A DNA stretch of 64,000 nt, from the NCBI GenBank assembly GCA_013214965.1, contig JABSRU010000006.1, positions 1 to 64,000 on the forward strand, read 5' to 3'. The position numbers and the translations under genes were made by a program. Below the pieces are notes generated by a model that saw only the letters and a program-made list of their open reading frames with translations, did no database searches and was not told the origin of the DNA. This document shows, one piece after another, positions 16,469-25,248 of this stretch. The DNA is from Gammaproteobacteria bacterium (lineage in GTDB: Bacteria > Pseudomonadota > Gammaproteobacteria > Enterobacterales > Psychrobiaceae). Position 1 is the stretch's first letter, and every line of letters begins with the position of its first letter.

Positions 16469-17359
16469 TTAGGTGGGTCCCAGCAAGGTGGTTAGTACAC
16501 CGGTGAGACTCAATATAATCAGCCCTAATGTTAATTCCATTTTGATCGCCAGTTGCAGTCGACTCAAACCGCCAGCATCGTTTAATTTAGGTACTAACCG
16601 CATTTTATTAAATGCCCCTAAACTTAACATCAGGATGACCAACGTCAGTTTTATCATCAATAACTGACCATAATCCGTAAATAAAGCTTGGTCAATAGAA
16701 CCGAATAACTCAATAACTAACCAACCACCAGCAAAAATTAATCCAGTGATCATCACCACCGCTAATTGGCCAAATTTAATCATGAGCCGCTTCGTCGCCT
16801 CAACATCCAAGCCCTTAGTGATCGTTAATAAGGGAATTAACGATCCTAACCACCACATGGCAGCAATAACATGACTGGTGATAGCGAAACTAGCAACTGA
16901 GTCTAACGCGGTGACATGACCAATTACGCTAAAAGAATAACCCAGTATAATGACGGCGCAGGTACTTATTAGGTAGTAATAGTGCTGATTTTTATGACTA
17001 ACAGATAAAAGAAATGCGCAAACTAGTAACAGTAGTAGTCCTAAACCTCGAATAGCACTTGCTTCACCAACATTAGAAAAAAGTAACATTTGTGCGATTT
17101 CAACATCGAACACACCCGCTAATCCAGTTTCATTAAAAGACCCCACCTGTTGCAAAAATTGCAGTACGGTCATGATTAAACCACCAGCAGCTCCCCACAC
17201 TCCATAACTGGCTAGTTGCTGCGAGGTGATAATATCTTGGTGATTAACGTGTGGTACTAGACGATGACAGCCCAATGCCCCAATACACAAACTTGCCATC
17301 AAATAAAAGCCAATCTTAAAAGTAACCGCGCTAATATCCCATGGCATTAGTTCAATCAT
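16469..17359 (-). CDS. copD: CopD-family copper resistance membrane protein
   Basis: This 296-residue protein has about eight membrane helices. The CopD domain is recognisable in the C-terminal half, with a His in Val-Ile-Ala-Ala-Met-Trp-Trp-Leu-Gly-Ser-Leu, a segment typical of CopD, and an earlier His-Val-Thr-Ala. CopD works with periplasmic CopC in copper handling or import across the inner membrane. The ATG overlaps the copC stop by four bases (ATGA), so translation is probably coupled. It is the last gene of the copper cluster and converges on mutH. Confidence 0.85.
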   Translation of the reverse strand: MIELMPWDISAVTFKIGFYLMASLCIGALGCHRLVPHVNHQDIITSQQLASYGVWGAAGGLIMTVLQFLQQVGSFNETGLAGVFDVEIAQMLLFSNVGEASAIRGLGLLLLLVCAFLLSVSHKNQHYYYLISTCAVIILGYSFSVIGHVTALDSVASFAITSHVIAAMWWLGSLIPLLTITKGLDVEATKRLMIKFGQLAVVMITGLIFAGGWLVIELFGSIDQALFTDYGQLLMIKLTLVILMLSLGAFNKMRLVPKLNDAGGLSRLQLAIKMELTLGLIILSLTGVLTTLLGPT

Positions 17360-17715
17360 TTTTCAGTAATACTGAAATGCGTTTTACCTGTCATTTTATG
17401 GCCATCACTGCCCATTAAGATCCAAGTCAATCGATATGCGCCAACAGGTAACGTAGGAAGACTAATTAAATGCTGTTTGCTTTCATTGCGCAATAATGTG
17501 TCAGGTAAATCGATTTTATTGTTCAATTGATCCAATAAATTTAATTTAACTAATCGGACGGTTTTAGAATATTGAATCGCAAAATATTCCGGTGACACGG
17601 TAAACACTTCACCAGCTTCAGGGCTGACACGTTGGAATAAAGGGTGAGCTGAAACCGATGTGGCAGCCATCATAAAGATTGCTGTTACCACTAAAAAATT
17701 TAATACTTTATTCAT
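17356..17715 (-). CDS. copC: CopC-family periplasmic copper-binding protein
   Basis: The 119-residue protein has a signal peptide of about 23 residues ending Val-Ser-Ala. Cleavage would expose His24 as the N-terminal residue, the usual Cu(II) ligand of CopC. The mature domain has the CopC pattern His-Pro-Leu-Phe at its start and Ser-Asp-Gly-His-Lys-Met-x-Gly near its end, matching the conserved Asp-Gly-His motif. It is followed by copD with an ATGA overlap and preceded by the NTF2-like gene nine bases away. It probably binds periplasmic copper and passes it to CopD. Confidence 0.9.
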   Translation of the reverse strand: MNKVLNFLVVTAIFMMAATSVSAHPLFQRVSPEAGEVFTVSPEYFAIQYSKTVRLVKLNLLDQLNNKIDLPDTLLRNESKQHLISLPTLPVGAYRLTWILMGSDGHKMTGKTHFSITEK

Positions 17716-17724
17716 GATTATTCC

Positions 17725-18177
17725 TTAATTTGACCAATGAATATAATTGATTAACCAAACGCCATTCACTAAATGTAGTGATAAGGATTCTGTACTAATA
17801 AAATCATAGTCTTTATTGTGAAAGTTTCCTTGTATCCGATTTTTACCGACCGAAAATGCCATACTCCCTTGCTCGACAATATGCTGCTCAATCCGGGTAA
17901 CGGTCATACTCTGCATAAATTTGATGTCGGATAGTAAATGTCCTTTGGCATATTCAGCTTTAGATCGTTCGACCCCTTTGCCCTCGAAAATCATCACATT
18001 AGGATCAAGAGCGGCCAATACCGCTTGCTTATCCCCCTTATTGATCCCCTGATGAAATGTCGTAATAACCTTAGCAACGGGTAAATCTAAGCCATTAACT
18101 AAGCTGGGGCTCGGCTCTTTAGCTCCGGCCACGGAACTCAACAATATCATCCCTAGAATCATTGTTTTAGCTATCAT
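17725..18177 (-). CDS. Secreted NTF2-like (DUF4440/SnoaL-type) protein
   Basis: The 150 residues start with a signal peptide (about 1-19, ending Val-Ala-Gly-Ala). An NTF2-like fold follows: an early helix with Phe-His-Gln-Gly-Ile-Asn-Lys-Gly-Asp, then Pro-Asn-Val-Met-Ile-Phe-Glu and a C-terminal Trp-Leu-Ile-Asn-Tyr-Ile-His-Trp-Ser. Proteins of this class are small periplasmic cone-shaped domains of mostly unknown role. Its place inside the copper cluster suggests a periplasmic accessory to metal efflux, which is inference. It overlaps cusA's end by 11 bases and precedes copC by nine, so all three are likely cotranslated. Confidence 0.75.
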
Positions 18178-21318: not shown

Positions 21319-23031
21319 TTAATTATTTGACTGACTAGTGGATTCAATATGGACATTAGAAATGACATATTTATCACCTTGTTTAGTGATTTCCAAATGC
21401 AAACTCAGCCCCCGTGATAACAGCGTCATATCCACTTGTTTGCTGACGATAAAGTCCATTGTCATACTCGGCCATTGCCATTGATCGATCGCAGCATGAG
21501 TCACGGTGATCATTCGATGATCAAGCATTAGTGATTCAATCGTACCACTGGTCCATACCGTATCAGGGATTGACTGTTGAAGTTTTTCGATCACCACTTC
21601 AGTGATCAAATATTGATTATTATCCGCTTGAGTAATTTCAATTTGTTGGGTTGAACCAATCTTCAACAAAGAGATATCAACATCATTCGCCACGATGAAA
21701 TCCATGGTCATAGTCGGCCATTGCCATTGCTCAATCGGCGGATGAGTAATAGTCACCATCCGATGCCCAACTATTAATGATTCAACGACTCCAGTGGTTA
21801 ACACCGACTGTGCTACCACCTGTTGCGGTCCGGTCTGATGATTCATTCTGACAAAATCAGAACTAACACTCGACTCAGAGTCCAATAAGAATTGCGCCGA
21901 GATCACCACAAGATCCTCTAATGCTAAGCCGTCGATAATCTCCATTTGCGTCGCATTACTACGACCTGTTTTGACATTAATTGATTTGAATTTCCCCTGA
22001 CCCAGGGCTAATACTACTCGGCTCGAATTACCCGTTCTGATCACTGCCTCACGAGGCACAATTAATACGTCATCGTCACTAACACTATCAATCACAATCT
22101 GGACGAACATATTAGGCTTGAGTTGGTAATCACCATTGGCAAAGCGCAAGCGTAATTGTACGGTGCGGGTTTTGGGATCGAGGGTTGGATAAATGTAATC
22201 GACCTTACCTTGCCAGCTGCGCCCCGGTAAATAATCTAGGGTCATGCTCACTTTATCTCCCTGTTTCACTAAGGCAGATTGCCGCTCAAACACTTGCGTA
22301 TTAACCCACACTTCATCCAATGAACCAATCGACATCATAGTGGTGCCTGGTTTAACATAAAAACCTTCTCGCACCGCTAAATTATCAATCACCCCAGACT
22401 GTGGTGCATAAATAGTGACATTTTGCTGTACTTGGCGGCTCTTAATTAATTGCTTAATCGCTTGTGGCGGCACGAGTAAAGCCTTAAGTCGGTCTTTAGC
22501 CGCTCTTATTAACCGACGATTATTACGGGCCAACGCCAGCACTAAATCTTCTTGGGCATTGACTAAAGCTGGTGAATAAATATCATAAATTGGCTGGCCT
22601 TTTGTTACCTTTGCTCCTTTATTTTTAACATAAAGTTTGTCAAGCCAACCCGCAACGCGAGGATGAATATGGACTAAATTTTCTTCATCGTATTGGACAT
22701 AACCGACGGTTCGAATTTGATCGCTAAAATTAGTCAGCTCAACCTGAGCCGTACGCACTCCTAAATTGTTAATCACATCAGGTGATATCTTAATAGTCCC
22801 GGGGCTATCGCTGTCATCACCGCCATATACTGGCACTAAGTCCATGCCCATTGGCGACTTTCCAGCTTTGTCACGGCGATAATTAGCATCCATCGGTGCT
22901 ACCCAATACAGAGGCTCTGCTGTTGTTTGTGGTGAAATAGAGGTCGATGAATTAGCCGTAAACCAAGCATAAACACTGATACCACCTGCCGCACCCATCA
23001 TTAATAAGATGGCTGAAAATAATTTATTCAT
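21319..23031 (-). CDS. cusB: CusB-type periplasmic adaptor with two C-terminal CusF-like domains
   Basis: The 570-residue adaptor links the CusA-type pump to the outer-membrane factor. After an N-terminal membrane anchor (about 4-22), a heavy-metal-binding segment near 43-72 keeps the Pro-Met-Gly-Met-Asp-Leu-Val-Pro motif but lacks cysteines. The barrel-sandwich and helical hairpin regions follow (about 80-390). Two tandem CusF-like domains end the protein, from about 412 and 494. Each has the CusF ligand set with exact spacing: His430, Trp438, Met441, Met443, and His512, Trp520, Met523, Met525. CusF is normally a separate chaperone. The gene overlaps cusC by four bases. Confidence 0.92.
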
Positions 23032-24311
23032 GATTTATCTCCTGCAACTTGGTTAAACAAATAAGCAAGTCGACTGGTTAACACTTGTTGTTCAACCGCA
23101 ATTTTTAATCCTGCGATGGTGGTATTCAATTCGCTAATACGCGCACGCATCACTTCCGAGAAGTCACCACTATCGTTCGCATAAGCATTTAAAGCGGCCT
23201 GCGCTTGTTGATGTGTTTGAGGCATTAATTGCCGAGTATATAATTGATGACGTTTTTCAAGCTGAATCAATTGGCTATTTAGGGCCTTTGCTTGGGCAAT
23301 CATTTGTTTTAACAGCAACAACTTTTGAGTTTTAATGGCTTCGGTATTCGCGATAGCAGCCTTCACTTGGTTATCTTGTTTTGCCGCCATATGAAGTGGT
23401 AAGTCAAAAGTCACTGCCACGGAAAATAGATCCGCACGATTTTGGTTGATTGGCGAATCAGCACGATAACCATAACTGGCATTAACGGCCCATTGAGGCT
23501 TATACCCCTGCTTGCTGATAGCAATACCAGTGGCCACCGCTGAAATATTTTTTTCCATCGCCAAGACATTAGGATGACGACTAAAGATTTGCGCTAGCGC
23601 CAATGGCGTAAATTCAGCAACAAATGTAGGTAGAGTTGGTAAATGCTGTGGCCAAGGTAACATCAGCAAATGCTCTGGTAGCCATTGATTCATGAGTTGC
23701 AGCGTATTATTACGCTGTTGGGTTAATTGTACTAACCGATCATCAAGTCGAATCAGTTCCAACTGCGCCCTAATAACATCTTGCTGGCGGGTTTTAGCGA
23801 TAGTTGATGCATAGCTAGATTCAGCAACATCAACCAACTGTTCAAACAGCTGCCGATCTTGTTTAATCAGTGCAATAGTGCGATCGGCTAAGTAAACTCG
23901 CAACCATAATTCACTGATGTTAACTTTCACTTGTGCTTGGCGGTTCAAACGTAATAATGGTTGTTGTTCACTACGCTCAACCAGCTGTTGCTGCACCAGA
24001 AGTAAACTATCACCACGGCCAAATTTTTGCTTAACCCCGACTTTAAATTGCGTCATGCCCTCTTGATTGAACGCAAAACTATCCAGTGGCATATTAACCA
24101 GCCCAATGGAAATCATCGGATCGAATGATGTCGCAGCAGCAACACTTTGTGCCAGCAATGCCTGTTGAGTTTGTCGATTACCAACCAACCAAGGATCGTC
24201 AGCCATCGCGGTATTGGTTGCTTGTTTTAATGATAAGCTTTGTTCAGCAAAAGTATTACTACTAAGCAGGAAGAAAATATAAAAAATAGTTAATTTTTTC
24301 ATCACATTCAC
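23028..24311 (-). CDS. cusC: CusC/TolC-family outer-membrane efflux protein
   Basis: The 427-residue protein has a signal peptide (about 1-22, ending Asn-Thr-Phe-Ala). Two repeats of the outer-membrane efflux protein domain follow, with long amphipathic helices rich in Gln, Leu and Ala. No lipobox cysteine is seen, unlike E. coli CusC, so it may not be lipidated. It would form the trimeric outer-membrane channel of the tripartite pump. The order DUF411-cusC-cusB-cusA, with one- to eleven-base junctions, supports one operon. Confidence 0.87.
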   Translation of the reverse strand: MNVMKKLTIFYIFFLLSSNTFAEQSLSLKQATNTAMADDPWLVGNRQTQQALLAQSVAAATSFDPMISIGLVNMPLDSFAFNQEGMTQFKVGVKQKFGRGDSLLLVQQQLVERSEQQPLLRLNRQAQVKVNISELWLRVYLADRTIALIKQDRQLFEQLVDVAESSYASTIAKTRQQDVIRAQLELIRLDDRLVQLTQQRNNTLQLMNQWLPEHLLMLPWPQHLPTLPTFVAEFTPLALAQIFSRHPNVLAMEKNISAVATGIAISKQGYKPQWAVNASYGYRADSPINQNRADLFSVAVTFDLPLHMAAKQDNQVKAAIANTEAIKTQKLLLLKQMIAQAKALNSQLIQLEKRHQLYTRQLMPQTHQQAQAALNAYANDSGDFSEVMRARISELNTTIAGLKIAVEQQVLTSRLAYLFNQVAGDKS

Positions 24312-24312
24312 C

Positions 24313-24828
24313 TTAAAACTGCTGCTGATAACTCTTTATTTCAGCATATACCACGTGAGAGCCATCACGGTTCAATTGAATGATTTTATACGCTCTAAAT
24401 TTATTGCCATTTTCCATTCCTGGTGAACCAACCACCATGCCCGGCACTGATAAACCAAATGCACCGCTCGGAGTTTTAGCAATAAATTGCTTTATATACT
24501 TAACTGGCACATGCCCTTCAAAAATAAAACCACCGGACAATTTGGTGCGAGGAGTAATCGCGGTATGGCAAGATTGCAAGTTTGGCGCGATGCCTAATTG
24601 TTTTTTCATGCTGTATAAATTATCGGGATGAACCGTTTTAGTGACTAAACCAGATTGATTGGCGTGATCAATCCAACCTTGGCAACAGCCACATTGTGGA
24701 TCTTTGTAAACGGTAAAAAGAGTGTCATTGGCTAGGGTTGCTTTAGTCGGTAAGGACAAAAAAAATATAGCCGTAATAACCGCGACTTTAAGCGCAGTAA
24801 AAATAGAAGATGTCATGAGTGTACCCAT
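24313..24828 (-). CDS. DUF411 secreted metal-associated protein
   Basis: The 171 residues have an N-terminal hydrophobic signal (about 13-33). A DUF411 domain follows, beginning Tyr-Lys-Asp-Pro-Gln-Cys-Gly-Cys-Cys-Gln-Gly-Trp, with a further Cys in Gln-Ser-Cys-His-Thr-Ala and His-Val-Pro in the centre. The family is linked to copper and other metal resistance loci, and the CGCC and CH motifs could bind metal or act in thiol chemistry. The exact role is not known. It is one base from cusC and 48 bases behind the small Cys/Met-rich gene. The start used gives a slightly long leader; Met5 is also possible. Confidence 0.85.
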   Translation of the reverse strand: MGTLMTSSIFTALKVAVITAIFFLSLPTKATLANDTLFTVYKDPQCGCCQGWIDHANQSGLVTKTVHPDNLYSMKKQLGIAPNLQSCHTAITPRTKLSGGFIFEGHVPVKYIKQFIAKTPSGAFGLSVPGMVVGSPGMENGNKFRAYKIIQLNRDGSHVVYAEIKSYQQQF

Positions 24829-24876: not shown

Positions 24877-25248
24877 TTAGCCAAGCATAGGAGGACGATA
24901 AAGAGAGTGATGAATTGAAATAACCGGCCATTTAACATCAGATAATAATGTTGACATCGGTTGCAGCGTGCTTGAGAAAACAGCATAGGGAATAAAAGCC
25001 AATGAGCAAATTTCATTGCAACAATCACGTTCATCATCACAAGACATCTGGTGAATGTTCATCTGCAACTCATTACAATCGGCCATCATGCTGTGCATAG
25101 CCATTGAGTTAGTGGCTTGCATTTGCATATTATAGGGCATAACAACAGAGGCCATCGCTTGCGTCACGCTAGCAATAAACATCAAAATCATTAATATCCG
25201 TTTCAAAATAAACAAAAAAAGACCACCCGCGACTATTATTACTGACAT
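24877..25248 (-). CDS. Small Met/Cys/His-rich secreted protein, first gene of copper cluster
   Basis: I do not recognise a family with certainty. The 123-residue frame has a hydrophobic N-terminus; a signal peptide would end at about Thr-Gln-Ala-Met-Ala. A mature part rich in Met, Cys and His follows (Met-Gln-Met-Gln, Met-Ala-Met-His-Ser-Met-Met, then clusters Met-Ser-Cys-Asp and Asp-Cys-Cys-Asn-Glu-Ile-Cys). That composition and its place at the head of the copper cluster suggest periplasmic copper binding. The start could be 25248 or the internal Met20, whose signal peptide would be more typical. An 11-bp inverted repeat lies directly upstream. Confidence 0.65.
   Translation of the reverse strand: MSVIIVAGGLFLFILKRILMILMFIASVTQAMASVVMPYNMQMQATNSMAMHSMMADCNELQMNIHQMSCDDERDCCNEICSLAFIPYAVFSSTLQPMSTLLSDVKWPVISIHHSLYRPPMLG

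Follow-up and report, generated by a model that had tools for sequence, protein, structure and literature searches.

The window, i.e., the whole stretch of 64,000 nucleotides of DNA that was analysed, stems from a marine gammaproteobacterium of the family Psychrobiaceae and carries on one strand the gene order DUF411 protein, CusC-like outer membrane factor, CusB-type adaptor, CusA-type pump, DUF4440 protein, CopC-domain protein and CopD-domain protein (Table 1), with neighbours from DUF411 to CopD either overlapping by a few bases or being separated by gaps of at most 11 bases. The pump aligns end to end with CusA of E. coli, whereby M573, M623 and M672 of the latter correspond to M566, M616 and M665, and the periplasmic methionine triad of a Cu/Ag pump is thus present. 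Other pumps encoded in the genome are at best 35-36% identical to this CusA. Judged by sequence, the gene run can be regarded as a cus operon for Cu(I)/Ag(I). A scan of the DNA for promoters and terminators gave a signal no better than that of shuffled sequence. The DUF411 protein that heads the run contains the Cys cluster KDPQCGCCQGW, and upstream of the operon (24877-25248, minus strand) lies a 123-aa open reading frame with Met/His/Cys clusters (MQMQATNSMAMHSMM, CDDERDCC), for which no Pfam family scored above its cut-off.

Table 1. Genes of the cus run and segments of the encoded adaptor, with positions in the window.
Feature	Position	Strand	Basis
CopD-domain membrane protein	16469..17359	-	domain assignment
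CopC-domain protein	17356..17715	-	Pfam
DUF4440 protein, downstream	17725..18177	-	Pfam
CusA-type RND pump, 1046 aa	18167..21307	-	TIGR00914, 1263 bits; alignment to 3t51
CusB-type periplasmic adaptor (570 aa), two CusF domains at the C-terminus	21319..23031	-	Pfam, model, Foldseek
Distal CusF domain D2, residues 494-562, ligands H512 W520 M523 M525	21346..21552	-	profile, motif, model
Inter-domain linker, residues 481-493, low model confidence	21553..21591	-	pLDDT <50 at 482-489
Proximal CusF domain D1, residues 413-480, ligands H430 W438 M441 M443	21592..21795	-	profile, motif, model
CusB barrel-sandwich/hairpin body, residues 102-310	22102..22728	-	Pfam HlyD_D23, 8e-83
HMBD-like N-terminal segment, residues 42-68, without Cys, with M47/M61/M63	22828..22908	-	Pfam HMBD
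CusC-like outer membrane factor (OEP x2)	23028..24311	-	Pfam
DUF411 protein, upstream in the same gene run	24313..24828	-	Pfam

The HlyD_D23 body and the best Foldseek match of the whole-protein model, E. coli CusB (3ne5), place the adaptor in the CusB class by sequence and predicted structure, and a score of 221.4 bits against the type subfamily NF007303 (PRK09783), below the cut-off of 390 bits, keeps it out of the narrow group around E. coli CusB. A first-pass annotation had proposed that its C-terminus holds two CusF-like domains with the exact CusF ligand spacing, and both proposals are borne out. The CusF_Ec profile (PF11604) matches two stretches of the adaptor (1.7e-39 for the whole protein), and when searched singly D1 and D2 reach 65.9 and 76.5 bits, respectively, against a curated cut-off of 27. 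Each domain has the ligand set of E. coli CusF (His, Trp at +8, Met at +3, Met at +2, equivalent to His36, Trp44, Met47 and Met49) and hence belongs to the metal-binding subtype HWMM. When the protein was shuffled 20,000 times, the pattern H-x7-W-x2-M-x-M turned up at least once in a single shuffle and twice in none. The interval 21319-22260 originally assigned to the two domains does contain both of them, but also covers part of the adaptor body.

The C-terminal region is predicted to fold into two five-strand barrels of the OB type found in CusF (mean pLDDT 90), with the CusF structures 1zeq, 2vb2 and 2qcp as best PDB matches (TM 0.83-0.86 by target length) and 2l55 among the further Foldseek matches. 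In the whole-protein model (mean pLDDT 76.6), confidence is low at residues 387-405 and 482-489, so that the protein is probably flexible just before D1 and in the stretch that connects D1 to D2; the mutual packing of the two domains is unreliable in the models (pTM 0.43 and 0.49). Going by the ligand pattern, either domain would be expected to bind Cu(I)/Ag(I).

It had also been suggested that the N-terminal heavy-metal segment has lost its cysteines and that binding duty has moved to the CusF domains. The segment is indeed free of Cys, but we see no evidence for such a move, since the corresponding segment of E. coli CusB likewise lacks Cys in the alignment, and since M47, M61 and M63 are invariant across 35 homologues. 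Three methionines are the binding residues of the E. coli CusB N-terminus (PMC6235853, PMC6715271), with the mature protein binding Cu(I) via M21, M36 and M38 (PMC6235853), to which M47, M61 and M63 correspond, and a three-methionine site is thus retained here, although its spacing is one residue shorter than in E. coli owing to a missing Phe (KSP-MGM vs KSPFMDM).

A profile search of the 4.25 Mb assembly found no CusF domain beyond D1 and D2, with the reservation that the assembly is 95.7% complete and split into 144 contigs, so that a free CusF could be missing from it. In E. coli, the pump is believed to be activated when free CusF loads CusB, and a fusion that takes the place of the free chaperone fits the evidence. 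The adaptor had initially been taken to be trimeric; it probably is not, because in E. coli six CusB subunits sit on one CusA trimer (PMC6235853). If the E. coli assembly applies here, one pump would carry up to 12 CusF domains.

That the tandem is unique to this protein was rejected. In 370 genomes drawn evenly from the class, CusF occurs in about 85, and among 64 adaptor-sized open reading frames with CusF, 53 contain one domain and 11 contain two. The majority of the best 80 relatives in genome contigs have two CusF domains and two of them have three, although this set is skewed towards tandems by the use of a tandem as query. Within the genus of the window, most genomes encode a single-CusF adaptor, and an intact pair is found in the window and in locus L003 of genome G003; a further genome of the genus (G008) has four CusF genes, two of which are tandems of the Alteromonadales type. 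On plasmids from marine Alteromonas and Vibrio there are also full-length relatives that, judged by coverage, are probably tandems. As a separate observation, three CusF domains each are present in two alphaproteobacterial adaptors (L066:4864-6795 and L071:6001-7974, all HMMM) and in L194 from the order of the window (HWMM).

With regard to its origin, the tandem fusion has arisen repeatedly; the single or multiple CusF state requires at least 13 changes over 64 sequences. A single clade of all second domains, i.e., one shared origin, was rejected (AU test, p 5e-67). In a tree of the adaptor body computed without the CusF part, the window protein and L003 nest, with support of 98/87 and 99/89, among adaptors of the genus that have a single CusF domain, which suggests that the second CusF domain of the window goes back to a duplication among same-genus single-CusF relatives. 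This suggestion draws mainly on the adaptor-core tree, since in the domain tree, where the placement of the window's D1 and D2 is without starred support, neither the grouping of all four domains of the window protein and L003 (p 0.62) nor that of the window's D2 with the R-R clade described below (p 0.11) is rejected.

One could suspect that the doubling is an artefact of a draft genome as fragmented as this one, but the two copies share only 52% protein identity, and the occurrence of this architecture in the separate metagenome-assembled genome G003 rules an artefact out for all practical purposes. Identity between the window protein and L003 is 64% for D1 and 74% for D2, compared with the 52% between D1 and D2 within the window protein, and by these values the pair is older than the split between the two lineages. 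All eight ligands are common to both proteins. Since synonymous sites are saturated while the nonsynonymous distances amount to 0.31 for D1 and 0.21 for D2, both copies look constrained, the saturation at the same time meaning that dN/dS between the two cannot be properly computed.

A comparison of 88 distinct two-domain proteins shows an HWMM or HMMM proximal domain in 87 and an HWMH one in the remaining protein, whereas an intact distal domain is present in 17 and a degenerate one in 71 (61 of an R-type, 10 of an H-W-G or G-type); these counts are sequences and not independent events, and as the proteins were collected with the window protein as the starting point, their proportions do not apply to bacteria at large. 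The two degenerate types probably reflect two or a few events. What sets the window protein apart, as far as its sequence indicates, is mainly that both sites look metal-competent, which is a minority state among tandems.

From these data it can be imagined that D1 alone matters as a chaperone and that D2 is a spacer or docking module in the course of losing its metal site, comparable to the distal domains of the Alteromonadales and H-W-G lineages. The near-universal competence of the proximal domain and the frequent decay of the distal one speak for this, as does the distribution of ages: D1-D2 identity ranges from 34 to 97% in intact pairs and from 24 to 45% in degenerate ones, so that the youngest duplications are found among the intact pairs. 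The pair of the window, however, sits among intact pairs of not very recent age, and both it and that of L003 have kept their sites at a D1-D2 identity of just 49-52%; moreover, it is D2 and not D1 that is better conserved between the two. We therefore consider it unlikely, albeit worth keeping in mind, that D1 is the only working chaperone in this adaptor.

In L010:6001-7674 and about 60 other distinct tandems, Arg, Arg and Ala replace His, Trp and Met, within a strongly conserved loop (S-R-x-x-I-E-K-W-x-R-P-A-A-T-x-D-F) of what is a CusF domain devoid of a metal site. Across the widespread Alteromonadales type, the four ligand positions are occupied by R, R/K, A/D and M/L/V/I, and in 58 distinct distal domains the first Arg, the Lys and the Thr of the loop are invariant and the Trp is present in 57. 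A second type of loss, H-W-G-M or H-W-G-Q, occurs in tandems of the order's other families (L175-L183, L192). In L067:6001-7446 and L159, the sole CusF domain detected is of the ligand-less R-R-A type. One could speculate, at what we would call even odds, that after doubling the distal copy tends to lose its ligands, yet stays folded and strongly conserved and comes to serve the pump as a module without metal, with the lineage of the window as the contrast in which both sites are kept.

Taken together, we favour the interpretation (probability about 0.72) that the protein is the adaptor of a CusCBA-type Cu(I)/Ag(I) pump to which CusF has been fused C-terminally and then duplicated within the genus, giving two tethered chaperones that act in parallel. 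D1 and D2 would each capture periplasmic Cu(I)/Ag(I) on their His-Trp-Met-Met site, the loaded domain would pass the ion to the methionines at the N-terminus of a CusB subunit, a transfer that is established for CusF and the CusB N-terminus in E. coli (PMC6235853, PMC6715271), and from there it would move on to the methionine site of CusA. Flexible linkers could allow both domains to reach, and two domains may mean more loaded chaperones locally per pump; that metal is bound and passed on, and that capacity may rise, is what we infer in this interpretation. Counting against two working sites is the loss of the distal metal site in most other tandems, from which it follows that a second site is not generally required.

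The first-pass annotation had also raised a relay, which would run in order from D2 to D1, the CusB N-terminus and CusA, with affinity differing at each step. The covalent order, the conserved sites and the metal handover through shared ligands known for CusF and the CusB N-terminus of E. coli (PMC6235853) would all suit such a scheme. However, the linkers are predicted to be flexible and the placement of D1 relative to D2 lacks confidence, most tandems have no second site to relay from, and near-identical pairs (L060, L187) show no affinity step in their sequence. A relay is hence possible, but nothing in the sequence calls for one, and we consider it rather improbable; parallel carriers are more likely than a fixed relay.

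In a broader context, CusB-CusF fusions were already argued in PMC3548706 to call for a revision of the soluble-carrier model, and tandems with one or two live sites could make that revision testable inside one adaptor family. Fused, doubled and half-dead CusF domains may be seen as natural experiments on how many metal-carrying domains are needed per pump and on whether CusF has any role besides metal carriage. Tandem adaptors sit in public genomes under the generic name RND adaptor subunit, and we found neither tandem CusF fusion nor distal ligand loss in the open literature searched, which includes few subscription papers.

Compared with CusCFBA of E. coli, the system of the window shares the adaptor body, the N-terminal methionine site, the pump methionine triad and the CusF ligand set, but E. 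coli has CusF as a separate protein, whereas in the window it is part of the adaptor in two copies and no free form was found. Single fusions, for which the first-pass annotation had rightly assumed precedents, are already published: SilB of Cupriavidus metallidurans CH34 has a C-terminal metallochaperone domain (PDB 2l55; Bersch et al. 2011, as cited in PMC4446572), and 22 gammaproteobacteria have CusB and CusF fused in one gene according to PMC3548706. SilB resembles the window protein in being a CusB-class adaptor with a C-terminal CusF-like domain, the structure of which is among the matches noted above, but one such domain is described for it vs two in the window protein; the 22 fusions resemble it in joining adaptor and CusF in one gene. 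Closer at hand, the single-CusF adaptors of the same genus differ by having one CusF domain instead of two. In public genomes of Colwellia, Pseudoalteromonas, Thalassotalea and their relatives, CusB does carry two C-terminal CusF domains, but the distal ligand positions read R-R-A-[M/L/V], and the position of their adaptor bodies in other parts of the tree makes it likely that these organisms doubled the domain separately.
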